Shown here: positions 7,162-20,085 of the stretch, one piece after another | How the letters are laid out: each line of letters opens with the position of its first letter | Position numbering within the stretch: the stretch's first letter is position 1 | From: a virus | Reading direction: 5' to 3' (one strand) | IMG/VR virus record: IMGVR_UViG_3300025769_016515 | Location: 1-51,113 of that record | DNA length: 51,113 nucleotides | Notes under the pieces: model-generated | Told to the model about the DNA's origin: nothing | What the model saw: only the letters and a program-made list of their open reading frames with translations | Database searches by the model: none | Program-made: the position numbers and the translations under genes

Positions 7162-8506
7162 GGGAACATTCCCTACTATAATAGCATTCTCTGCCCTGTC
7201 AGTTAGCGCTTCGGCCGCTTTCTATTCAGTTAGCGGCTTGAGCAAACTTTTTGCTGGGGCTTCCTTTGAGGTAATTATAATGGCTGGCTCACTTGAGGTA
7301 GCAAAATTAGTAATTGCCTCTTTACTATATCAATACTGGGATACATTAAATAAAGCACTTAGAGCATATTTAACTATAGCTGCAGTAGTACTGGTATTAA
7401 TTACTAGTATGGGTATTTATGGTTTTTTAAGTGCTGCTTACCAGGACACTTATCAACAACTTACTGTAACACAAAATAAAGTATTATTTTTAGAAAATAA
7501 AGCAAAATTCTATGAGGATGATGTGGCGAGATATGATGAGGAACTTAACAGAATTTCTAATAATATTAGCACTCTCAGTAATGCGAAGGCTACCTCGATC
7601 CAGGTACGAGACACCACGTCATCTACAGGTCTTCGATCAACCGTCTCCACTGCTGAACTTCGATTGGCTCAACAGCGTATTGAAGTTGAAGAAGAAAATC
7701 GTAAAGAGGTTAACGAAAGAAGAACAGTAGCAGCCGATAGTTTACAAAAATATAAACTTCAAATCCTAGAATTACAAAACAACTCAGCTGTAGCAGGTGA
7801 ATTAGGTCCCTTACAATATCTTTCTGGATTAACAGGAACGTCAATGGATAAAATTATTAACTGGTTATTACTTGTTATTATATTTGTATTTGATCCTTTA
7901 GCAATATCTTTAGTTGTAGCAGCAAATATGGCGTTTGCCAATGCCTTTCCTAAACGAGAAGAAGAAACATCTATACCGGGTGTGTTTAAAGATGAAGAAT
8001 TTGAACCTTGGGATGGTTCAGAAATAGAACTAGAAGCAGACCCAAATGATTTACCTGATTTAGAAGAAATTGAAGTTAATAAACCTGAAGTAGTCAAAGG
8101 CGATTCAAATTTTTTATCTAAATTAGATGAAATCGAAGCTCGAATGCTTAAAGAAGATACTATAGAAGAACAACATTTAAAAATCCAAGAGCAAGACGAA
8201 AAAATAAAACAACTAGAAAATGAAATAGATTTAGCACATGAGGAAATAAATGAATTAGATCGTGCTGCTATTAGAATGGTTGATGGTATAAAACATATAG
8301 ATGACTATTTAAAACACCACGGAAGATATTACGATGCAAGTGGTGTAAAATGGGATGATGTAAAATTAGGTTTTGCAGAAGAAAGTGATTATATTGAGAA
8401 ACGAAAATTAAGATCAAAACCTATAGGAAAAACAGATCCATACTTAGATAAAAATGAAGATCCTGATTATCCTAAAAATGATAAAGACAATATAATAACT
8501 TATTAA
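7133..8506 (+). CDS. Membrane protein with central coiled coil
   Basis: A 457-residue protein with about four hydrophobic segments: residues 12-35, 45-65 and 78-100 before, and 245-268 after, a long charged helical region (about 105-220) with heptad-like patterns. A D/E-rich cytosolic-looking tail from about 275 carries a second coiled coil near 340-385. The layout suggests an inner-membrane protein with its coiled coil on one side, known in marine T4-like phages only as a hypothetical membrane protein. No enzymatic motif is seen. The start overlaps the MazG-like gene by 29 bases. Confidence 0.7.
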   Translation: MKNFLNLIRKGTFPTIIAFSALSVSASAAFYSVSGLSKLFAGASFEVIIMAGSLEVAKLVIASLLYQYWDTLNKALRAYLTIAAVVLVLITSMGIYGFLSAAYQDTYQQLTVTQNKVLFLENKAKFYEDDVARYDEELNRISNNISTLSNAKATSIQVRDTTSSTGLRSTVSTAELRLAQQRIEVEEENRKEVNERRTVAADSLQKYKLQILELQNNSAVAGELGPLQYLSGLTGTSMDKIINWLLLVIIFVFDPLAISLVVAANMAFANAFPKREEETSIPGVFKDEEFEPWDGSEIELEADPNDLPDLEEIEVNKPEVVKGDSNFLSKLDEIEARMLKEDTIEEQHLKIQEQDEKIKQLENEIDLAHEEINELDRAAIRMVDGIKHIDDYLKHHGRYYDASGVKWDDVKLGFAEESDYIEKRKLRSKPIGKTDPYLDKNEDPDYPKNDKDNIITY

Positions 8507-8512
8507 AAATAA

Positions 8513-9139
8513 ATGTTTAATTTTCCTGATCAATATTCAACTCCTACTTCTATTGCAAATTTTAAAAATTTTTTAGATTTAAGAGAAATAAATAATTTAT
8601 TTGAATCTATTAAAACTTTACCTTATACACAAGGAACAGTTGTAAATTCTTCTAAATTTAAAAAGGATATAAGAAATAGTAATATTAAATGGGTCCCTCA
8701 TTCTGATGAATTTAAATGGTTATATCATAAATGTATTGATATAATTACCCAATATAATTCATATAATTGGAAATTTGATCTAAAAAGTGCCCCTGAATCT
8801 TTTCAATATACTGAATATAATAGTAATCAAAAAGGACATTATGATTGGCATATAGATATAGGCTCAGCCTTAACTTCTCATCGAAAAGTATCTGTTACAA
8901 TCCAACTCTCAGACCCCTCAGAATATGAAGGAGGCTATTTACAACTTTTTAATACAGGTGATGATAACCCTAACGAATATGATTATAGTTTGGATACCCC
9001 TTATTATATTAAAAGTGTTAAAAAAGAAATAGGTACTATTACAATTTTTCCTTCTTTTATGCCCCATAGAGTTAGTCGTGTAACTAAAGGAGTTAGAAAA
9101 TCTTTAGTATTATGGGTTGGAGGTTGTTCATTTAAATAA
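8513..9139 (+). CDS. 2OG-Fe(II) oxygenase, PKHD/prolyl-hydroxylase-like
   Basis: A 208-residue oxygenase with the full facial triad: HID at 113-115, His185 in FPSFMPHRV, and Arg195 for 2-oxoglutarate. The intervening blocks KVSVTIQLSDPSEYEGGYLQ (125-144) and GTITIFPSF are typical of PiuC/PKHD-type and prolyl 4-hydroxylase-like enzymes that hydroxylate peptides or small molecules. It is the clearest of the five oxygenases in this window. It immediately precedes the DNA polymerase, with 15 bases between. Confidence 0.85.
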   Translation: MFNFPDQYSTPTSIANFKNFLDLREINNLFESIKTLPYTQGTVVNSSKFKKDIRNSNIKWVPHSDEFKWLYHKCIDIITQYNSYNWKFDLKSAPESFQYTEYNSNQKGHYDWHIDIGSALTSHRKVSVTIQLSDPSEYEGGYLQLFNTGDDNPNEYDYSLDTPYYIKSVKKEIGTITIFPSFMPHRVSRVTKGVRKSLVLWVGGCSFK

Positions 9140-9154
9140 TATATTAATAAGGTT

Positions 9155-10915
9155 ATGTATAAAAAGATTTACGAACAAGGTAGAGGAGAAAATAAACATC
9201 TAATACATTTGTGGACAGATGAAGGTTACGAAAAAATAGAGTGGAACAATTATGCCTATAAAGAATGTCGCCCTGAAGAGGCTGAATTTACAGGTCTAAA
9301 AGGCGAACCACTCCGTAAAACCCATGACTGGGATAGAAAAACCCCTAACTTACATTTTGGTGACATTTCAGCTCACCAAAAGTTCTTAATAGAAAAATAC
9401 GGTACAAACGATGAAACCTCTAAAACTTGTAGAGAGGTTTTCTTTGATATTGAGTGTGAAATGGGGGGAGCACTTACAGAAGAATATATTTCAAATGCTC
9501 CTAAACCCATAACTTCAATTGCTTGGTATGATAAACAAGTTGACCAATGGGCAATTGTTATTTTAGATAAAAAGGGACAATTAAAGCGCACTAAAGTAAG
9601 AAACAAAGAAATTATACCTTTTAGACACGAGGCAGATTTGTTAGATTGTTTTATCTCTAGAATGGAAGAGATACAACCTGATATGCTTGTAGGATATAAT
9701 AGTGACTATTTCGATATTCCCTACTTATATTATAGAACTTGTATTGTATTAGGTGACAAAGAAGCTAAAAGATTGTCACCAATTGGTATTGTTAAGCACG
9801 CTAAAAATAATCAATATTGGTATACAAAAGATATGTTTGTTGATATTGCTGGTTTAGAATCAATGGATTATATGCGCTTACATAAAAAGTACAGTTGGGA
9901 AGATGAACCAAGTTGGAAACTCGATGCTATCGGCGAAAAATACGTAGGTATCAACAAAATTGAATACGAGGGTACATTAGATGATTTATTTGAAACTGAT
10001 ATTCAAAAGTTTATACAATATAACTTTGTTGACGTTGAAATATTAGTTGAACTAGACAAAAAATTACAATATCTAGCCTTAACAAGAAACCTGGCACACA
10101 AAGGTAAAATTAGATATGGTGAAGTATATGCTTCCTCTAAAATCCACGATGGTGCTATTTCAGCTTATTTATTATCCCAAGGAATTATCCCACCAGGTCG
10201 TCCACACGGAGAAAAGAAATTAAATTATGCTGGTGGTTACCTGTTTTGCCCTAAAGCAGGTTTATACAAGTACATGTTTGATGAAGATTTAACTTCACTA
10301 TACCCTTCAATTATAATGTCTTTAAATATAGGACGAGAAACAATTGTAGGTAAAATTGTACCTGAATCATTACCTGAAAATTTAGAAGAATTTGGACCCT
10401 ATGGAGGTAAACCAGATCGCAATAATTATTTAGGTTTAAACGATTTAGAGGCTATGAACCCTGAAGAAGAACTTATAGTTATGGATCCTAATAGAAGGGG
10501 CAATCCTAGAGCTACAGTTACAGTTGAAAAACTGGTAGGAATGATAAAACAAAATAAATGGGCTGTAGCAGCAAATGGTACATTTTTTAGAACAGATAAA
10601 GAATCTGTATTATCAACTATTCTTAAAAAATGGTTTGAAGAAAGAGTATTATATAAAAATGAAATGAAAAAATGCTATAAAGCAGGTGATAATGAAGGTG
10701 GTGCTAAAAATCACTTACTACAGTATACAATGAAAATCTTACTTAACTCATTGTATGGTGCTACAGCATTAAACTCATTTAGATATGGAATGCCTTTATC
10801 TATATTATCAGAAGCAATCACATTATCAGGGTGGCGCATTATACAAGAATCAGCATTATCCGCTAATCGCCATATGAACCAGGTATTAAGAAACCAAGTG
10901 AAACTAGAAATATGA
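9155..10915 (+). CDS. 43: DNA polymerase family B, N-terminal piece (exonuclease, motifs A and B)
   Basis: A 586-residue N-terminal part of a T4 gp43-type replicative polymerase. The 3'-5' exonuclease motifs are intact: FFDIE (D98, E100), YNSDYFDIPY (D187) and YNFVD (D293). Polymerase motif A is DLTSLYPS from D378, and motif B is KILLNSLYGA (527-536). The protein stops 50 residues after motif B, before motif C, which lies on the separate gene at 16854-17777. Together the pieces have 893 residues against 898 in T4 gp43, so nothing essential seems lost. The end carries no intein-like splice junction. The stop overlaps the next gene as ATGA. Confidence 0.92.
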   Translation: MYKKIYEQGRGENKHLIHLWTDEGYEKIEWNNYAYKECRPEEAEFTGLKGEPLRKTHDWDRKTPNLHFGDISAHQKFLIEKYGTNDETSKTCREVFFDIECEMGGALTEEYISNAPKPITSIAWYDKQVDQWAIVILDKKGQLKRTKVRNKEIIPFRHEADLLDCFISRMEEIQPDMLVGYNSDYFDIPYLYYRTCIVLGDKEAKRLSPIGIVKHAKNNQYWYTKDMFVDIAGLESMDYMRLHKKYSWEDEPSWKLDAIGEKYVGINKIEYEGTLDDLFETDIQKFIQYNFVDVEILVELDKKLQYLALTRNLAHKGKIRYGEVYASSKIHDGAISAYLLSQGIIPPGRPHGEKKLNYAGGYLFCPKAGLYKYMFDEDLTSLYPSIIMSLNIGRETIVGKIVPESLPENLEEFGPYGGKPDRNNYLGLNDLEAMNPEEELIVMDPNRRGNPRATVTVEKLVGMIKQNKWAVAANGTFFRTDKESVLSTILKKWFEERVLYKNEMKKCYKAGDNEGGAKNHLLQYTMKILLNSLYGATALNSFRYGMPLSILSEAITLSGWRIIQESALSANRHMNQVLRNQVKLEI

Positions 10916-11676
10916 GTTTACCCAGTGTTATGGATTTTATTGATATTAAAACATTTCTAAATAAAGGAGTTGGTCAGTACTCTGATAGATTTATAGAATT
11001 TTTAGAAAAAAACCCATCAAAAATAAATTTAATCAAAAAAATTCCAATAAATAAAATAAAAGAATTTTATCGTTGTAGAGTTCATACCCCTAGATTTACT
11101 GATTTTTCTTATATTTTAAATTTTTTAGAAATTCATAATTTTTTTAATAATCCTTTTTGTCAAGGTGTTTCTGAATATATTGAATGGAATCAAAAACCAA
11201 TGGCTAAAACTATAGAAGACTTTTCTTTATATACAATGTTATTACAAGAAATAAACCCTTTATCAGTTATTGAATTGGGAACGGGTAATGGGAATTTTAC
11301 TAACTATATGAAAGATGTTTTAGGAGATAAAACTAAAATAATGTCTTTTGATAAAAATGGAAATCATTATTTTTGTGATTCAAAAGATTTAAGTACTTTT
11401 GATCCTTATACTTCTGATTTTAATAATTTAAAACCCCCTATTCTTTTTATAGAAGATGTTCATGTAAATACATTTAATAATTTAGAATACTTCTTCCAAT
11501 ACTCTACCCCAAGTTGTTATTTTGTTATAGAAGATTGTAGTCCTAAATCTAAATTAAATGCTGTAAAAAAATGGTTTTTAAATCATAAAGAAGTTTTAGC
11601 TATTGATACTAAATATACTGGGATGTTTGGTACTTTTAATACAATTGTTGTAAAACATTTAAAAGCAAAAATATAA
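10912..11676 (+). CDS. CmcI-like class I methyltransferase
   Basis: A 254-residue protein with a SAM-binding glycine-rich loop VIELGTGNGNF (119-129), then the aspartate strand IMSFDKNG and the FVIEDCSP block, resembling the CmcI/rhamnosyl O-methyltransferase family. Members methylate sugar or small-molecule hydroxyls. The first 100 residues are helical and not recognised. It is the first gene of the block inserted between the polymerase halves and is translationally coupled to the polymerase N-piece. Confidence 0.6.
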   Translation: MSLPSVMDFIDIKTFLNKGVGQYSDRFIEFLEKNPSKINLIKKIPINKIKEFYRCRVHTPRFTDFSYILNFLEIHNFFNNPFCQGVSEYIEWNQKPMAKTIEDFSLYTMLLQEINPLSVIELGTGNGNFTNYMKDVLGDKTKIMSFDKNGNHYFCDSKDLSTFDPYTSDFNNLKPPILFIEDVHVNTFNNLEYFFQYSTPSCYFVIEDCSPKSKLNAVKKWFLNHKEVLAIDTKYTGMFGTFNTIVVKHLKAKI

Positions 11677-12017
11677 TGGAATTAGAAAGTAGACCTTGGG
11701 GTATGTATGAAGTTTTATTAGATTCACCTGAATGTAAAGTAAAACGAATAACAGTAAACCCAGGCCAAAAATTATCATATCAATATCATACTAAAAGACG
11801 TGAACAATGGACAGTAGTTAAAGGTAATTTAACTATAATTTTAGATGATAATGAAATATTTAGAGCACCTGGTGAATCAATTAAAATACCCTTAGGGGCT
11901 AAACATAGAGCTTGGAATGAAACAGATGAAATAGTACAATTTATAGAAGTCCAAACCGGAACTTATTTTGGGGAAGACGATATAGTAAGAATAGAAGACG
12001 ATTATAACAGAGAATAA
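11676..12017 (+). CDS. Stand-alone cupin, mannose-6-phosphate isomerase type II-like
   Basis: A 113-residue protein matching the C-terminal cupin domain of ManC-type bifunctional enzymes, which interconverts fructose-6-P and mannose-6-P. The family start RPWGMYEVL (6-14), VKRITVNPGQKLSYQYH (22-38), EQWTVVKG (43-50), IPLGAKHRAW (71-80) and GTYFGEDDIVRIEDDY (95-110) are all recognisable. Metal ligands are probably H38, E43 and H77. The guanylyltransferase domain is missing; sugar nucleotidyltransfer might come from 41696-43063. It would feed the GDP-mannose/GDP-fucose route with the phosphomannomutase at 18310. Confidence 0.82.
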   Translation: MELESRPWGMYEVLLDSPECKVKRITVNPGQKLSYQYHTKRREQWTVVKGNLTIILDDNEIFRAPGESIKIPLGAKHRAWNETDEIVQFIEVQTGTYFGEDDIVRIEDDYNRE

Positions 12018-12018
12018 T

Positions 12019-12282
12019 ATGGCATTATCAAAACAATCATTAAGAAAAGGTGTTCACATAATGATGAACGGAAAGTTAGCTACAAAAGAGGAACTTATAA
12101 AAATGAGCCAAGAATGGAGCGAAAAACGAGAAGTATTTTTTCGTAAAATGTTACAACAAGGAGGTAGATTTTCCTTTGATGGGATTAAATTTGAAATAAA
12201 AATTAGAGCTAACATATCTGAAAGATCGGATGGAGAAATAGATGGGGGCATAGTTACTATTCCCGGAGATAGTAGATTTTAA
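12019..12282 (+). CDS. Small protein of unknown function
   Basis: An 87-residue charged protein, soluble by composition, with a helical N-terminal half and a short beta-like C-terminal half (RFSFDGIKFEIKIR). I recognise no family. It fits exactly between the cupin and the glycosyltransferase gene, ending where the next ATG begins, so it is probably real. Confidence 0.6.
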   Translation: MALSKQSLRKGVHIMMNGKLATKEELIKMSQEWSEKREVFFRKMLQQGGRFSFDGIKFEIKIRANISERSDGEIDGGIVTIPGDSRF

Positions 12283-13721
12283 TGGAAAACTTTGTTTGGA
12301 TTACAGGTGGAGACAAGTCCTATATGGGCATGGTTAAAATCTTAGCTGAGAGTTTACTTAAATTTTCTAAGTATAAACTTATAGTTTATGGTTTTAATTG
12401 TGATGTTGACATTGATTTACCTAATGTAATTCAAAAAAGAGTAAATTTTGCACCAAAAAATACACACCATTTTAGTTATGAGCCTGATTTAATTAATAAA
12501 GATTATTCTTTATATTATGGGAAATACATAGCAAGTTTATATTCATTTGAAGAAAATTTTGAAAAATTTGCTTGGTTAGATGGTGATGCTTTTGTTACCG
12601 AAAATATAGATAATTCATTAAAACTCTTTAATGATTTACCATATTATCCACTATTCATGAGATATTATCACCCAGATGTGGCTCAATGGAAATTACATGG
12701 ACAAATTAAATTAGAAGGAAAATATGGGATGGAACTATCTACTTTAAAAAATATTCAAAGAAATCCTTTTAATAGAATTTTAGCTACTGGGTTTTATTTT
12801 TATGATAGAAAAAGTAAATGGTTTTTTGAAAAATGTATGGAATGGTACTCCGAATTAAGTAATAGGAGTATGCGTATCTTTGTTGATACAAATGCTTTTT
12901 CTGAAGAAAGAACAGCTAATTGTATTTTATGGCAACACAACCAAAACCAATACCTCCCAGTTACTTGGAACAATTATTATAGTTCTCCTGAAGAAACTAA
13001 AGTAAATAATTACTTTCTTAAAAAAGGTTTTGATATAATGTACAATGAAAATACATTAGAACCTTATTTTATACATGGACCAGATCCTCATATAATTAAA
13101 AAATCCCCAGAAATTTTAAAATCTACTTATAACGATTATATCTGCACCAAGTTAATGATTGTAGCTCACCCAGATGATGAAACTATTTTTGGGGGTATAG
13201 AATTAGCCCAATATGGGCCTGAATATAAAGTAGTTTGTTTAACTAATAGTTCAAATGAATTACGTAAAAAGGAATTTAATAAAGCTATGAGATCTTTAAA
13301 AGTAAGATCTTGGGAAATGTGGGATTGGAAAGATGATTTGTATAACTTTACAGATTTAGATATTAAAAAAATTAAAACCTTAATAAATAGTAGAACTTGG
13401 GAAAAAATTGTAACACATAATCCTATAGGTGAGTATGGCCATCCCCAACATAAAGCTGTATTTGATGCTGTAAAATCTATTACTGATAATTTTTATGTTT
13501 TTGGTAAATCAACTAAAAATGATATTAAATTGTTAAACAAAAAAGTAAAAGCTTTAAATTTTTATCTCTCTGAAAAAGATATAATTCAACAATTACTAAC
13601 CAAAAATGGAGATTGGTTTAAAAGTAATGATAATTCTACTAATTATATAGAGCACGAATCAATAGAAAAGTATAATCCTGAAAAGGATATTACTCCTTAT
13701 ATAGCTTGTTATGACAAATAA
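12282..13721 (+). CDS. Fusion: GT-A-like glycosyltransferase domain + PIG-L (LmbE) deacetylase
   Basis: A 479-residue two-domain protein. Residues 1 to about 280 look like a GT-A nucleotide-sugar transferase with a DxD motif in FAWLDGDAF (97-105). From about 290 it is a PIG-L/LmbE zinc deacetylase: IVAHPDDE (293-300) and GEYGHPQHK (383-391) supply the metal-binding His and Asp. PIG-L enzymes remove an N-acetyl group from GlcNAc-containing molecules. A deacetylase joined to a transferase suggests making or using an amino sugar on a glycan. It lies inside the gap of the split polymerase and overlaps the next gene by 11 bases. Confidence 0.72.
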   Translation: MENFVWITGGDKSYMGMVKILAESLLKFSKYKLIVYGFNCDVDIDLPNVIQKRVNFAPKNTHHFSYEPDLINKDYSLYYGKYIASLYSFEENFEKFAWLDGDAFVTENIDNSLKLFNDLPYYPLFMRYYHPDVAQWKLHGQIKLEGKYGMELSTLKNIQRNPFNRILATGFYFYDRKSKWFFEKCMEWYSELSNRSMRIFVDTNAFSEERTANCILWQHNQNQYLPVTWNNYYSSPEETKVNNYFLKKGFDIMYNENTLEPYFIHGPDPHIIKKSPEILKSTYNDYICTKLMIVAHPDDETIFGGIELAQYGPEYKVVCLTNSSNELRKKEFNKAMRSLKVRSWEMWDWKDDLYNFTDLDIKKIKTLINSRTWEKIVTHNPIGEYGHPQHKAVFDAVKSITDNFYVFGKSTKNDIKLLNKKVKALNFYLSEKDIIQQLLTKNGDWFKSNDNSTNYIEHESIEKYNPEKDITPYIACYDK

Positions 13722-14742
13722 AGAATGTTTTTTAGTTACAGCTTATTGTAATACAGAAGAAAAAAAACAAGTATTACAAAAAACTTTAAATGATTTAAAA
13801 AGATATAATAAAGAAATTATATTATATTCTCACTATCCTATTACTGAAGAAGAAAGTAATTTAACTAATTACGCTGTATATGATTATAGTAACCCTATAG
13901 TAGATATTCACCAAGGTTCTATGTTACATTGGGTAATGGTAGAAAACTTTAGGCTTTGTACTTTATATCCTGACTATGGTTATGCTGCTGTCCAACAGTG
14001 GAAACGAGGATTACTATATGCTAATATGTTAGGATTTAAAAAAGTTTATGTTTTAAATTATGATTTAGATATAAATGATCAATTAGTATATTTACTAGAA
14101 AAAGGTTTAGAACAACATAAAAGTGTTTTATTAGATTATGATCTACCTCAACAAAACCCGGGTATGCATATGTCTTTAGCAGGTATTCAAACCCAATATT
14201 TTTTAGAACTTTTAAACCAAATAAATTATTTAGACTATTTAAGCACTCATCATGACAATATCCCAGAAAATTATTTGTTTAATAAATTCAACTCAGATAA
14301 TACTATGGTAGTTCCTGTTGGGGAATGGGAAAATATTGCTACTACATCTATTAGAATGGGAGAACAAAGTTTTGTAGAAGAATTTTATACTAGAAATGGT
14401 TATAAGTGGATATTAGGTCAAGAAAAGATATTTGATAAAGGAGTTGAATCTAACCCTGATAAAGTAGTATTATGTCTTTGGGATGTTGAAGACAATTTAG
14501 AAGTTGAAATTTTTATAGATGGAAAAGGTATTCCTTTAAAAGATATTAAAAAAACAGATAGAACAATTCAAATATATCTTCCTATACCTTATAGTCAAAT
14601 TACTCAATATGTAGGTAAATTTGTAAATAATACATTTGAGCATGTAGAAGGAAGATTAAAAATTATTATAAATGGTGTGGAAATTGAAAAAGAATTACTT
14701 AGATTATGCACTATATCCGCAATTGAAAATATAAATGAATAA
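13711..14742 (+). CDS. Putative GT-A-fold glycosyltransferase
   Basis: A 343-residue protein with an N-terminal Rossmann-like start (CFLVTAYCNTEE) and a candidate DxD in VYVLNYDLDIND (D118 and D120). This pattern suggests a nucleotide-sugar-dependent transferase, but the family is not one I recognise with certainty. The C-terminal 100 residues form a separate beta-rich region (about 245-335). Neighbours are a GT/PIG-L fusion and a sugar C-methyltransferase. Confidence 0.5.
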   Translation: MTNKECFLVTAYCNTEEKKQVLQKTLNDLKRYNKEIILYSHYPITEEESNLTNYAVYDYSNPIVDIHQGSMLHWVMVENFRLCTLYPDYGYAAVQQWKRGLLYANMLGFKKVYVLNYDLDINDQLVYLLEKGLEQHKSVLLDYDLPQQNPGMHMSLAGIQTQYFLELLNQINYLDYLSTHHDNIPENYLFNKFNSDNTMVVPVGEWENIATTSIRMGEQSFVEEFYTRNGYKWILGQEKIFDKGVESNPDKVVLCLWDVEDNLEVEIFIDGKGIPLKDIKKTDRTIQIYLPIPYSQITQYVGKFVNNTFEHVEGRLKIIINGVEIEKELLRLCTISAIENINE

Positions 14743-15940
14743 CAAAGGTTATACCAAACGACTTACTTGTGCTTCTTGTAATAGTACCAATCTTCATACA
14801 ATACATGATTTTGGTATAGTTCCATTAGCAGGATATTTCCCTTCAGAAGAAGAAAAAAGTATTAAATCTGAATATCCCTTAGAATTTCAAATTTGTACAG
14901 ATTGTTCTTTAGCACAAACAGATAGTATTATTGATGCTGAAATATTATTTAAAGATTATAGATATATTTCTTCAGTGGGGATGCAAAATCATTTTAATCA
15001 ATATGCTGATTGGTTAGTTGAGAAAGAAGGTATAAATAAAGATACTAAAATACTAGAATTCGGATGTAATGATGGCCCCCTACTTTTAGCGTTACAAGAA
15101 AAAGGTATAAAAGCTACAGGTATTGATCCTGCATCCAATATTGTAAAATTAGGTAGAGATAAAGGATTAGATATTATTGATGATTTTTTTAATATAGAAA
15201 CAGTTGATAAGTATAATTTAATACAAAAGTATGATTATATTTTGTCAAGTAATTCTTTTGCCCACATTACAGATATTCAATCCGTTATTTCTGGAGTTAA
15301 ATGTGCTTTAAAATCAAAAGGAAAATTTATAGTTGAAGTACAATATTTAGTTGACTTAATAGATAAATTCCAATTTGATTTTATCTATCATGAACATTTA
15401 TACTATTATACTATAACCAGTCTAAATAATTTATTATTACCGCATGGGTTTTGTGTTGTTGATTTTGAACATATCCCTATCCATTCAGGATCAATTAGAG
15501 TTATTATAAGTAGATGTAAAGATTACGAAGTAAGCGATAAAGTTTATAAACAAATTGAATTTGAAAAATCATACCTTAACTTGGATACTTTTAGTACTAA
15601 AGTTAAAGAATCTTTAGATAATTTAAATAAATTTTTTAAAAATTCTGCAAATAAAACCATTATAGGATACGGAGCTTCAGGTAGAGCAAATATGATAATC
15701 AATACATTAAAACTAACTACAGATAATTTAAAATGTATTATAGATGAATCACCTGAAAGGTACAACCGTTATATAGCAAATCAAGAAATTCCTATTATAT
15801 CTTTAAATAAATTAGATATTAAACCAGACTATATTTTAATTTTAGCTTGGAATTTTGCGGATATGATAATTGAAAAAACAAAACATTTAAAAATACCTTA
15901 TGTTATACCCTTCCCAAATCTTAAAATTGTGCAACCATGA
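14735..15940 (+). CDS. NDP-sugar C-methyltransferase (zinc-binding N-domain, TylCIII-like)
   Basis: A 401-residue three-domain methyltransferase of the type acting on NDP-keto-hexoses. The N-terminal zinc domain has CxxC pairs at C12/C15 and C54/C57. The SAM-binding core follows (ILEFGCNDGPLL, 106-117), then the conserved YHEHLYYY block. A C-terminal Rossmann-like domain contains GYGASGRANMI. The family (Methyltransf_13/Methyltransf_23/Methyltransf_14 architecture) places a methyl on C3 or C5 of a 4-keto sugar. Substrates could come from the dehydratase genes at 15937 or downstream of 31145. It overlaps both neighbours by a few bases. Confidence 0.82.
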   Translation: MNNKGYTKRLTCASCNSTNLHTIHDFGIVPLAGYFPSEEEKSIKSEYPLEFQICTDCSLAQTDSIIDAEILFKDYRYISSVGMQNHFNQYADWLVEKEGINKDTKILEFGCNDGPLLLALQEKGIKATGIDPASNIVKLGRDKGLDIIDDFFNIETVDKYNLIQKYDYILSSNSFAHITDIQSVISGVKCALKSKGKFIVEVQYLVDLIDKFQFDFIYHEHLYYYTITSLNNLLLPHGFCVVDFEHIPIHSGSIRVIISRCKDYEVSDKVYKQIEFEKSYLNLDTFSTKVKESLDNLNKFFKNSANKTIIGYGASGRANMIINTLKLTTDNLKCIIDESPERYNRYIANQEIPIISLNKLDIKPDYILILAWNFADMIIEKTKHLKIPYVIPFPNLKIVQP

Positions 15941-16857
15941 AAGGTAAAAAAATTTTTATAACAGGAGGAGCTGGTTATTTAGGGTCTCATTTAGTAGAAC
16001 GTTACTACAATGATAATGATATTACTGTATACTCAAGAGATGAGGCTAAACATTACTATTTAAAAAAACGTTTTCCTAAAATTAAATGTATAATAGGAGA
16101 TGTACGAAATGCTGATTTATTAATTAGATCTGCTAAAGGACATAATATTGGTATATTTGCAGCATCCTTAAAACAAATAGAATCTGTAGATCAAAATGTA
16201 GAAGAAGCAGTTAGGGTTTTAATTGATGGGGCTATAAATTCTAGAAGAGCAGCTGAGGAAAACAATTTTCAAGCCGCATGTTTTATCTCATCTGATAAAT
16301 CAAGAGCAGCTACCACATTATACGGCTCAATGAAATTTATAGCCGGAGAATCATTTATAGTCAATTCCGAACAATCTAATGTTAAACTATCTTCAGCAAT
16401 ATATGGTAACGTTTTAAATTCTACAGGTAGTATAATTCCTTTAATATGGGATTCTATTGAAAAAGGATATCCTCTAACTTTATATTCTTCTGAAATGACT
16501 CGCTTTATGATTGATATTGAGGAAGCTATGGATTTAATAGAGGTAGGGTTACAATTAGATGGTGTTAATGTTATTCCCAAATTAAACTCATTTTTAGTTA
16601 AAGATTTATTTGAAATTTATGCTGATAAATTCGGCTTAAAGTATAAAATTGGTCAACCTCGTATATCTGAAAAAATACATGAGGTAATGGTATCCAAGGA
16701 AGAAATACCTAGAACTTACCTAATGGATAATTATTATATAATGCATTATAATGATTTATCATTAATCCCATTAAAAGAGGAATTTACTAGTGATAAAGCA
16801 GTTGTGTCTAAACAAGAATTAGATCGTATATTACAGACATATAATTACTTTAAATGA
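15937..16857 (+). CDS. CapD/PseB-like NDP-sugar 4,6-dehydratase or epimerase
   Basis: A 306-residue short-chain dehydrogenase/reductase of the polysaccharide-synthesis subgroup. The NAD-binding motif is GGAGYLG (10-16). SRDEAKHYYLKKRFP, IGDVRN and AASLKQIESV match the PseB/CapD UDP-GlcNAc dehydratase or epimerase pattern, followed by an ISSDKS block where the family has ISTDK, and a YGSMK active-site motif. Length is slightly short for PseB. It is the last gene of the block between the polymerase halves and overlaps the polymerase C-piece by four bases (ATGA). Confidence 0.8.
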   Translation: MKGKKIFITGGAGYLGSHLVERYYNDNDITVYSRDEAKHYYLKKRFPKIKCIIGDVRNADLLIRSAKGHNIGIFAASLKQIESVDQNVEEAVRVLIDGAINSRRAAEENNFQAACFISSDKSRAATTLYGSMKFIAGESFIVNSEQSNVKLSSAIYGNVLNSTGSIIPLIWDSIEKGYPLTLYSSEMTRFMIDIEEAMDLIEVGLQLDGVNVIPKLNSFLVKDLFEIYADKFGLKYKIGQPRISEKIHEVMVSKEEIPRTYLMDNYYIMHYNDLSLIPLKEEFTSDKAVVSKQELDRILQTYNYFK

Positions 16858-17777
16858 AACATTTAGAGAAAACACCTTGGTTTATTTGCGATGAAAATGA
16901 TACGAACCTTTGCGCGTATGTGGACACGGATTCAAACTATTTTAATGCTGAGCCTTTACTTCTTCATCTTTATCCTAATTTCGAAGAATTATCAAATGAA
17001 GAGAAAGATAGTAAGCTTGAAAAAGTGGCTCTCTATTACCAAGATTTTATTTCTGATCACTACAATAAATTAGCTAAAGAATGTTTTAATGTTGAAGAAC
17101 ACAGGTTGGAAATGAAAACTGAATGTGTTATTCGCGCTGCCTACTTTAGAGCCACTAGACGTTATGCTCAGTGGATTACAAAACAAGAGGGTATAACAAA
17201 AGAAACATTAGACGTAAAAGGTTTAGAATATAAAAAATCTAATTTTCCTCAAGTATTTAAAGGATTTTTTGAACAAGTAGTAGAAGATGTTTTAAAAGGT
17301 ACTAAACAAAAAGAAATAGATAGACGTATACTTGATTTTAAATCCCAAATATTAAAAGATATTCCTATTGAACAATTAGGTAATCCTACGGGAGTTAAAA
17401 CATTAAACAAGTATATCGAACGTAAGCCTGTAGGAGGTGAAGCATTCACTGTAATCGCTAAAGGAGCCCCTGCTGCCGTGCGAGCTACTATTAAGTATAA
17501 TGATTTACTTAAATATTGGAAGTTAGATAATAAACATGAAACAATTGTTCAAGGTAGTAAAGTTAAATGGATTTATTTAAAAAAGAATCCCTATAATATT
17601 GAAGCATTAGCTTATCTTGATTATGACATGCCTGATAAAATTAGAGAATTTTTAGATAAGTTTGCTGATAAGGAAAAGGTATTTGATACTATATTATTAA
17701 ATAAATTAGAAGGGTTTTATGATGACTTAGGATGGAAATTAGTTACAAACCCTTATGTTAATCAGTTTTTTATATGA
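16854..17777 (+). CDS. 43: DNA polymerase family B, C-terminal piece (motif C and thumb)
   Basis: A 307-residue C-terminal part of the gp43-like polymerase. Motif C is CAYVDTDSNYF, with both metal-binding aspartates in DTDS (24-27); the glycine usual before the first Asp is Val here. The rest corresponds to palm and thumb, including KPVGGEAFTVIAKGAPAAVR and a C-terminal end NPYVNQFFIF-like region where gp43 binds the clamp. The first 20 residues precede motif C and would align with the loop after the last helix of the N-piece at 9155-10915. It has its own ATG overlapping the preceding epimerase gene, so it is translated as part of the insert operon. Confidence 0.9.
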   Translation: MKHLEKTPWFICDENDTNLCAYVDTDSNYFNAEPLLLHLYPNFEELSNEEKDSKLEKVALYYQDFISDHYNKLAKECFNVEEHRLEMKTECVIRAAYFRATRRYAQWITKQEGITKETLDVKGLEYKKSNFPQVFKGFFEQVVEDVLKGTKQKEIDRRILDFKSQILKDIPIEQLGNPTGVKTLNKYIERKPVGGEAFTVIAKGAPAAVRATIKYNDLLKYWKLDNKHETIVQGSKVKWIYLKKNPYNIEALAYLDYDMPDKIREFLDKFADKEKVFDTILLNKLEGFYDDLGWKLVTNPYVNQFFI

Positions 17778-18313
17778 AAAAGTTTATAAAAGTTTATGAT
17801 AATATAATTTCACCCAAATTAGCAGATAATTTAGAAGATTTATTATTAGGACAATCCATCCCCTGGAATTATATTCAAAACATTACACACTCAAACTCTA
17901 CCACTAATTATCTCCCAGGATTCTCTTATTATTTTGTAAATAAAAATATAAATTTATATGAAAATTCTTGTTTTAATATTTCTCAAATATTATATAATCT
18001 TACATATAAATTAAATATTAATCTTTTAGATATTATTCAAGCTAGAGTTTTTTTACAAATTCCTTCTTTAAAATCTTCACCTAATGAAGTTCATGTTGAT
18101 TTAGAATTTCCTCATTGGGTATGTTTATATTATGTTTGTGATAGTGATGGTGATACTATTTTATTTGATAATAGTGGAAATGAAATTAAAAGAGTTTCTC
18201 CTAAAAAAGGCAGAATTGTTTTTTTTGATGGAAGTATAAAACACTGTAGTTCTAGTCCTTCTAAAACCCATAGAGCAGTTGTTAATTTTGATTTTATAGG
18301 AAAAAAATTATGA
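17774..18313 (+). CDS. 2OG-Fe(II) oxygenase (paralogue of the one at 1186)
   Basis: A 179-residue oxygenase with HVD at 107-109, His157 and Arg167 as the iron and 2-oxoglutarate residues. YYVCDSDGDTILFD (119-132) and the KRVSPKKGRIVFFDG block closely follow the protein at 1186-1806, showing common descent, although they are 16 kb apart. The substrate is unknown. It overlaps the polymerase C-piece and the phosphomannomutase gene as ATGA junctions. Confidence 0.78.
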   Translation: MKKFIKVYDNIISPKLADNLEDLLLGQSIPWNYIQNITHSNSTTNYLPGFSYYFVNKNINLYENSCFNISQILYNLTYKLNINLLDIIQARVFLQIPSLKSSPNEVHVDLEFPHWVCLYYVCDSDGDTILFDNSGNEIKRVSPKKGRIVFFDGSIKHCSSSPSKTHRAVVNFDFIGKKL

Positions 18314-19011: not shown

Positions 19012-19391
19012 AAATAGAAGTATCAAATGGTGAGATAGTTGATAAAATGACTATCCTAGAATTAAAATTAGATAAAATTAAGAATAAATCTCAATTAGAG
19101 AATATCTCTAAAGAATGGGAGATACTTAATGATTGTGTTATGTCATTATTTCAAATTTATGGTAATTCTAAACTATATAGTAAAGTAGATGAATTATCGG
19201 ACATTAACAGTAAGCTTTGGGATGTAGAAGATTGGATTCGTGATTGTGAAAAAGAACAAAGGTTTGATAAAGAATTTGTGGAATTAGCCAGATCAGTTTA
19301 TAAATTAAATGATCAAAGATCTGAAGTAAAAAGACAAATTAATATATTAACTAAATCTGATTTAATTGAAGAAAAGTCATATAGTAAGTAA
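19008..19391 (+). CDS. DUF6165-like protein
   Basis: The protein is 127 residues from ATG 19008; a start at 18972 would add 12 residues inside the previous gene. The beginning, KIEVSNGEIVDKMTILELKL, resembles DUF6165 proteins found near glycan and glycosyltransferase genes in bacteria. The rest is charged and helical with probable coiled coil. Function is unknown. It overlaps the clamp gene by 26 bases. Confidence 0.62.
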   Translation: MKIEVSNGEIVDKMTILELKLDKIKNKSQLENISKEWEILNDCVMSLFQIYGNSKLYSKVDELSDINSKLWDVEDWIRDCEKEQRFDKEFVELARSVYKLNDQRSEVKRQINILTKSDLIEEKSYSK

Positions 19392-20085
19392 TATTGAAAA
19401 ATACTATCTAAATGGTTTAACTAAAGAGGTAGTATGGAATCTAGTAGGTGGTAAAGCAACAATTGACTTTGCTACCGAAACTAAAGATGCTGTAGGTCAA
19501 GTTATATTTAATATGCCATTACCTGATGGTCCCTTAGCCATCTATAGTACAGATGCTTTACTAAGATTAATTGGTATTACAAGTGAAGAAATACAAATTG
19601 AACTAAGTAAAGGTCCTACAGGTTTAGTTGATAAACTAAAAATACAAGACAATAAATTTGATTTAAATTACCACTTGAGTGATATTAACTCAATCCCAGA
19701 AGTACCTAATGTAGCAGAGACTGACTATGATTTCTCATTTAAAGTAAATGATGAATTTATTACAGGATTTCTTAAAGCACATAACGCATTAGAAAAAATA
19801 AAAGACGTTACATTTAATACTGCTACTACTCCACAAGGTGAAAATATAGTAGAAATTATACTAGGTGAACGTTCACAACATTCACATAAAGTTAAATTTA
19901 CTGAATTAGCAGAATTTGAATCACAAAGTGACATTATCCCCTTTTCAGCTATCGTATTACGTGAAATGTTATCAGCTAATAAAGGTACAGAAGGTACAAT
20001 TTATGTAAGTAATAAAGGGTTAATGAAATTAGAATTTAACTCTGAAGAAAGCAGTGCAAAATATTTTGTTGTAAGACAACAATAA
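19366..20085 (+). CDS. 45: DNA polymerase sliding clamp, gp45-like
   Basis: A 239-residue protein close in size to T4 gp45 (228), the trimeric ring that tethers polymerase to DNA. Supporting segments are the two-fold pattern of short beta-rich domains, YSTDALLRLIG, KLKIQDNKFDLNYHLSD, the interdomain stretch INSIPEVPNV, and a C-terminal IYVSNKGLMKLEF strand pair. The start used is TTG 19366; no ATG offers a better in-frame choice. Genomic placement beside Hsp20/GroEL and the clamp loader gp44/gp62 supports the call. It is followed by a 92-base gap with a promoter-like motif. Confidence 0.82.
   Translation: MKKSHIVSNIEKYYLNGLTKEVVWNLVGGKATIDFATETKDAVGQVIFNMPLPDGPLAIYSTDALLRLIGITSEEIQIELSKGPTGLVDKLKIQDNKFDLNYHLSDINSIPEVPNVAETDYDFSFKVNDEFITGFLKAHNALEKIKDVTFNTATTPQGENIVEIILGERSQHSHKVKFTELAEFESQSDIIPFSAIVLREMLSANKGTEGTIYVSNKGLMKLEFNSEESSAKYFVVRQQ

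Follow-up and report, generated by a model that had tools for sequence, protein, structure and literature searches.

The window, as the whole 51,113-nucleotide stretch of the IMG/VR virus record IMGVR_UViG_3300025769_016515 is called here, carries the gene of a T4-type DNA polymerase (gp43) in two parts. The N-piece (9155..10915, plus strand; 586 amino acids [aa]) comprises the 3′-5′ exonuclease, palm motif A, the fingers and motif B; the C-piece (16854..17777, plus strand; 307 aa) comprises motif C, the remaining palm, the thumb and the C-terminal tail NPYVNQFFI. The break between them is filled by 5.9 kb with seven open reading frames (ORFs) on the same strand. Pfam matched DNA_pol_B_exo1 and DNA_pol_B to the N-piece, in which FDIE, NSDYFD and YNFVD are found at residues 97, 182 and 289, motif A (DLTSLYPS) at 378 and motif B (KILLNSLYG) at 527; motif C (YVDTDS) and RRYA are at residues 22 and 102 of the C-piece. 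Exo I to III, followed by motifs A, B and C, thus run across both pieces in the order of a family B polymerase. Residues 159–609 of RB69 gp43 align to the N-piece (E 7.7e-45). When the PDB was searched with the sequence of the C-piece alone, no meaningful match was obtained; its AlphaFold2 (AF2) model (predicted local distance difference test [pLDDT] 82), submitted to Foldseek, matched gp43 of RB69 and T4 (E about 4e-11; template modeling score about 0.75 over its length). On PHROG 262 (T4-like DNA polymerase), the N-piece covers positions 18–568 and the C-piece 565–848, and because these parts are consecutive, the two pieces together tile one polymerase. Thus, both pieces make up a single gp43 of T4 type, with the cut immediately ahead of motif C. 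The first-pass annotation, made from the letters of the window, had the coordinates and lengths of both ORFs right, as well as the allocation of the motifs to the two pieces and the total of 893 residues compared with 898 for T4 gp43 (the length at which T4 chains are listed).

Alignment to unsplit gp43 from related phages, which the same annotation had proposed, showed that no residues are missing at the junction; instead, the split form has about 20–25 extra. The bulk of these belongs to an N-terminal extension of the C-piece (MKHLExTPWxICD...N; 16854..16913, plus strand), which is not present in uncut relatives but nearly invariant in the split clade (0.93–1.00 at most conserved positions, from column counts over 188 loci). 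The ratio of nonsynonymous to synonymous substitution rates (dN/dS, omega) was about 0.02–0.12 for N-piece and C-piece alike (13 pairs; 0.02–0.11 for the N-piece), so strong purifying selection acts on each of the two. The split gp43 would have polymerase and proofreading activity. A second family B polymerase, and with it the intact gp43 that the first-pass annotation had named as evidence against its reading, was found neither in the window nor in 11 relatives of 65–166 kb, the records of which may be incomplete.

Relatives were collected by searches of IMG/VR, resulting in 189 non-redundant loci with both pieces (113 in an earlier set). All of them are split at one identical point (189/189; 113/113 in the earlier set) and none contains a re-fused polymerase; in four loci from bacterial genome bins, N-piece and C-piece are separate as well. 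The split, described at first as a feature of this phage, is therefore fixed in the whole clade. At the DNA level, the window had no match among named phages, and no close cultured relative is found there. Since the window is a single metagenomic contig, the halves could have been misjoined, or gp43 could be broken and the genome replicated by another polymerase. Either is hardly credible, given that the same split was recovered from many metagenomes, that both pieces show the low omega given above, and that none of the 11 large relatives has a second PolB. Moreover, L090, a locus from another metagenome with a polymerase about 76–80% identical, contains four of the seven cassette genes, with order and place kept and with a divergence resembling that of the polymerase pieces themselves. 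The chimeric assembly that the first-pass annotation had warned of has thus left no sign.

In 52 of the 189 loci, the break contains no insert, and the stop codon of the N-piece overlaps the start codon of the C-piece, as ATGA in 47 and as TAATG in 5 (−4 and −1 nt, respectively). A single chain could still result if the halves were joined after expression, by split-intein trans-splicing, RNA splicing or frameshifting. Such arrangements exist: in L200, a distant T4-like relative, a split intein interrupts the polymerase at motif C (7745-9250), with an Intein_splicing domain after YGDTDS, a C-intein before SNHMS and a 322-aa ORF between, which is the arrangement of a fractured gene (intein halves at the junction, endonuclease between; Dassa 2009, as cited in PMC6892783). 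The split PolB of Pseudomonas phage MIJ3 carries a split intein and an HNH gene (PMC6892783), and the polymerase of the uncultured huge phage LR756508 (L162:12001-19925) is interrupted by one intein at motif B and by another at motif C. The window does not show the fractured-gene arrangement. Neither the end of its N-piece nor the start of its C-piece contains an intein domain (Pfam, sequence inspection), a search of Rfam for introns between 8000 and 20500 gave no match, and the break is filled by seven unrelated ORFs; in addition, the loci with overlapping genes retain the ATG of the C-piece and its conserved MKHLE start. Joining after expression is therefore very unlikely. An intein or a group I intron linking the halves was considered for the window and rejected for want of any domain or Rfam match.

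Instead, N-piece (exonuclease, motifs A and B) and C-piece (motif C, thumb) would associate non-covalently and thereby restore the active site of the palm; the conserved extension of roughly 20 residues at the C-piece perhaps aids their assembly. That the two polypeptides assemble and act in trans is expected by analogy with the split gp43 of Aeromonas phage 25, which is reported to co-purify and to be active (Petrov, Ratnayaka and Karam 2010, as relayed in PMC2988022). Selection may even keep gp43 split: the 47 loci with an ATGA overlap are a single base change away from a fusion of the frames, yet fused versions were found in 0 of the 189. In that case, gp43 would be an obligate two-subunit enzyme with the extension serving as a novel element of assembly, and polymerase supply would be tied, through the cut, to a changeable cassette of the same operon. 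This stronger proposal is, at present, rather unlikely.

Split phage polymerases as such are known. The first-pass annotation mentioned split gp43 in some Aeromonas T4-like phages, and this is confirmed for phages 44RR2.8t and 25, in which a T4-type gp43 is encoded by two adjacent genes (43A and 43B) that together cover one gp43 without loss, as in the window. The annotation also emphasized that the catalytic aspartates reside on different proteins; motifs A and C are indeed separated, but this is not new because gp43 of 44RR and 25 is cut before motif B, which likewise leaves the two motifs on different polypeptides. When the cuts of the window, 44RR and Rhodothermus phage RM378 were mapped on one alignment, that of 44RR (residue 498) corresponded to window residue 515, about 70 residues upstream of the break in the window; on 44RR gp43, the latter falls at residue about 597, immediately ahead of motif C. 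The break points are, thus, not the same. Phage 25 43A is equal in length to 44RR 43A. The gap measures 49 bp in 44RR and contains one endonuclease gene in phage 25; unlike in the window, metabolic cargo is present in neither. RM378, an isolated Far-T4 relative (PMC4360716, PMC7198788), also has PolB in two genes, but the cut lies between exonuclease and polymerase domains (window residue about 355; 313 + 522 aa) and the halves are about 57 kb apart. MIJ3 shares with the window a PolB in two genes and an intervening gene, but its split intein is expected to join the halves, whereas the window is devoid of an intein. In LR756508, PolB is likewise interrupted immediately upstream of motif C, and several ORFs (about 3 kb) occupy the gap, but this phage differs in its inteins and in the event itself, which was independent (see below). 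Most members of the group of OM43 phages MEP401 and MEP402 have their replicative polymerase interrupted by a small unknown ORF (PMC10580990); this polymerase, however, is of family A and from another phage family, and the single small ORF is no metabolic cassette. In the open-access library searched, neither this break nor this cargo was found to have been reported. Thus, as a split phage polymerase, the gp43 of the window is one of several and in this respect ordinary; new and unusual are where it is broken, that the split is fixed without re-fusion in a large clade, and the cargo other than endonucleases.

By gene content, the window fits the Far-T4 phages, which are characterized by queuosine genes, GTP cyclohydrolase, PRT, Hsp and PolB (PMC4360716): QueE, GTP cyclohydrolase, PRT and Hsp20 are encoded near gp43, and GroEL also fits. 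Far-T4 phages have been linked to Flavobacteriales (PMC13037479), and two of the four genome bins that hold the clade are metagenome-assembled genomes of Flavobacteriales, which are, therefore, probably the hosts.

The nearest uncut polymerases are those of Microcystis phage Mel-JY01 and about 78 from IMG/VR, roughly 31–40% identical to that of the window. Where both halves were readable, the polymerases of this sister group (about 78) are uncut, with the sole exception of LR756508; its cut is considered independent because it is closer to the uncut Mel-JY01 group (42% versus 34%). For 103 polymerases placed on a tree, a single transition from uncut to split suffices. The split and uncut groups are separated by long branches, so the single origin rests on the clean division between them, not on fine topology. 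Since the sister group is uncut, the split is derived: it arose once, on the stem of the clade, without later re-fusion in the sampled relatives. Parsimony (on a larger, quicker tree with some weakly supported basal branches) placed the gene of an 87-aa protein, also present in the window, in the ancestral break; about 11 changes have followed. The gene was not split by the sugar cassette, because many relatives are split without any insert or with one 87-aa gene.

The leading guess on how the break arose, which falls a little short of an even chance and is compatible with a two-polypeptide enzyme, is that it was opened by a homing endonuclease or a fractured-gene (split intein) element. This element would since have been lost, with an enzyme of two subunits and a vacant slot as the outcome. 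L200 and LR756508 were hit independently at motif C, the former by a split intein and the latter by an intein plus a cut, so elements of this type have targeted the region repeatedly. Within the clade itself, homing-endonuclease genes of three kinds are found in the breaks of five of the 189 loci: a SegE-like GIY-YIG (L069), a GIY-YIG with NUMOD (L324 and L326), and CapR/HNH (L345 and L367). Aeromonas phage 25 (PMC2988022) provides a precedent. Conversely, the ancestral break as placed by parsimony held the 87-aa gene, which bears no resemblance to an endonuclease, and the endonucleases of the split clade could be latecomers. Among the seven cargo ORFs of the window, no homing-endonuclease gene was recognized. 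The N-pieces of L324/L326 and L345/L367, the breaks of which contain an endonuclease gene, have other C-terminal tails (ATKDFLENL, FKEEFLNSL), as if the insert had replaced the last codons.

Nearly all loci with an insert contain between 0.2 and 5.9 kb, the seven genes of the window, for the most part enzymes of surface sugars and methyl transfer, being the longest found. The breaks of relatives encode the 87-aa family, DUF6165, cupin, cytidylyltransferase, Smr, a pyridoxal phosphate (PLP)-dependent enzyme and aminotransferase, and further GNAT, halogenase, SET, epimerases and methyltransferases. Even between closely related polymerases the cargo differs (L126, L127, L145 and L157), and the commoner cargo families were gained or lost 9–15 times each on the tree. 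The same split with other cargo, for which the first-pass annotation had advised to look, is thus common among relatives, and as different cargo occupies the identical break, cargo does accumulate there. Most cargo boundaries again show stop and start codons overlapping by −4 or −1 nt, which should keep the polymerase genes coupled whatever the insert.

The core gene that follows the C-piece in relatives encodes a gp45-like sliding clamp (in the window, 19366..20085, plus strand; named by position and sequence reading, its library match being an unnamed PHROG). Its homolog was found in 111 of the 113 loci, at a median of about 26 bp after the C-piece, and served as the interval reference. When the N-to-C interval was compared with 11 other core-gene intervals, it was the most variable of the 12 (median 626 bp, maximum 5938 bp; C-to-gp45, median 26 bp). 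It had the largest 90th percentile and the largest maximum, and by far the largest median among nearby intervals; one distant interval slightly exceeds this median (690 bp), yet is far more constant. These values bear on the possibility that the break is no special landing spot, but, once cut, just another intergenic gap where small genes come and go. The MazG-N, C-gp45, gp45-Hsp20 and GroEL-gp44 intervals do hold inserts in some relatives, and the DUF6165 and 2OG oxygenase families are found on both sides of the C-piece. On the other hand, besides the extremes of the N-to-C interval, the 87-aa gene and the cupin are almost confined to it. An ordinary gap is, therefore, a plausible but somewhat doubtful explanation. 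Of the suggested landing spot, the collection of cargo stands.

In sum, the window very likely encodes a working gp43 of two polypeptides that assemble non-covalently; the split has one origin, and cargo coupled by stop-start overlaps would use the break as an intergenic slot. Since N and C genes are joined by stop-start overlaps only, the break can act as such a slot within the replication operon. According to this scheme, a single cutting event took place on the stem of a clade of uncultured Far-T4-like phages, with Flavobacteriales as probable hosts; genes with ATGA or TAATG overlaps at both ends could then come, go or be replaced, the polymerase genes remaining in a coupled array. Several observations weigh against it. 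Other core intervals take inserts too (up to 5.2 kb between GroEL and gp44), so the slot is a favored, not an exclusive one; in the model of the isolated C-piece, confidence in the extension is low (pLDDT about 50); the endonuclease genes in 5 of 189 breaks may have invaded an existing split; and the Far-T4 placement is by gene content rather than by a gp23 tree. Frequent re-assortment of the halves has little support: N and C distances are correlated (r 0.88) with few outliers, so their exchange is uncommon. Separately, in L147, L430/L431 and L106/L107, the N and C pieces, or a patch in the break, diverge differently from the flanks, which suggests recombination at the break. In L120 and L129, a GC-rich near-repeat (CCGCGCAA...GCGTTAAACGCGCG) directly follows the N-piece stop, where the break begins on its left side; it is possibly a hairpin or recombination element.

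A polymerase cut beside its catalytic center, and never seen re-fused in a diverse clade, amounts to a natural experiment on the divisibility of an enzyme. The series formed by its relatives (no insert, 87-aa gene, endonucleases, up to seven metabolic genes) makes the gain of auxiliary genes in an essential operon testable, and also whether endonucleases open such slots. For annotation, it should be kept in mind that the polymerase marker gene of these phages is in two parts.

The cargo of the window starts with a CmcI-like methyltransferase (10912..11676, plus strand), assigned by phmmer to CmcI structures (1.4e-9, residues 90-250); Pfam gave nothing above cut-off. It forms a single-member cluster and was in no sampled relative's break. 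The mannose-6-phosphate isomerase type cupin that follows (11676..12017, plus strand; PF01050, 5.8e-29) belongs to a family with 28 members in the breaks of the 189-locus set. The 87-aa protein (12019..12282, plus strand) is the most constant occupant of the break, with 118 members in the same set. No family match was obtained for it from Pfam, PHROG, or further and relaxed library searches, nor a relative among named phages, and its AF2 model was of low confidence (pLDDT 65). A necessary role in polymerase function, which had been considered for it, was weakened because the gene was undetected in several records of 40–95 kb without an insert. In L077 and L081, it is located 4-5 kb upstream of gp43.

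Next is a protein (12282..13721, plus strand) with a C-terminal PIG-L deacetylase domain (PF02585, 5.4e-15, residues 291-400), a homolog of which occupies the same place in L090. The 343-aa protein behind it (13711..14742, plus strand) has homologs in the breaks of L090, L112, L116 and L126. Glycosyltransferase identity, proposed in the first-pass annotation for the latter and for the N-terminal half of the PIG-L protein, is not supported, as family searches, relaxed E-values included, were empty for both. The last two cargo genes encode a sugar C-methyltransferase (14735..15940, plus strand; PF08484, 3.2e-26; PF13489, 6e-17; PF08421, 8e-12) composed of a zinc-binding domain, Methyltransf_23 and Methyltransf_14, and a PseB/FnlA-like nucleotide-sugar short-chain dehydrogenase/reductase (SDR; 15937..16857, plus strand; PF02719, 2.6e-41), which matched TIGR03589 (PseB) with 3.4e-49, under the equivalog cut-off. 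Thus, the earlier labels of methyltransferase, cupin, PIG-L, C-methyltransferase and PseB-like SDR hold, and the two glycosyltransferase labels are unproven. Likewise, the genes from N-piece to C-piece overlap by 1–11 nt as had been noted, except for a 1-nt gap at 12017/12019.

Close behind the C-piece, a phosphomannomutase (PF03332; 18310-19011) is encoded, which, together with the cupin, points to mannose metabolism. A 242-aa gene is flanked at 44-2932 by a pair of similarly sized genes for Nol-like carbamoyltransferases. Together with these neighbors, the cassette suggests that surface sugars may be made or altered. The 242-aa gene bears the PHROG label 'DNA endonuclease V', as does 17774-18313; since the latter was weakly called a 2OG-Fe(II) oxygenase by Pfam, this label may be wrong.

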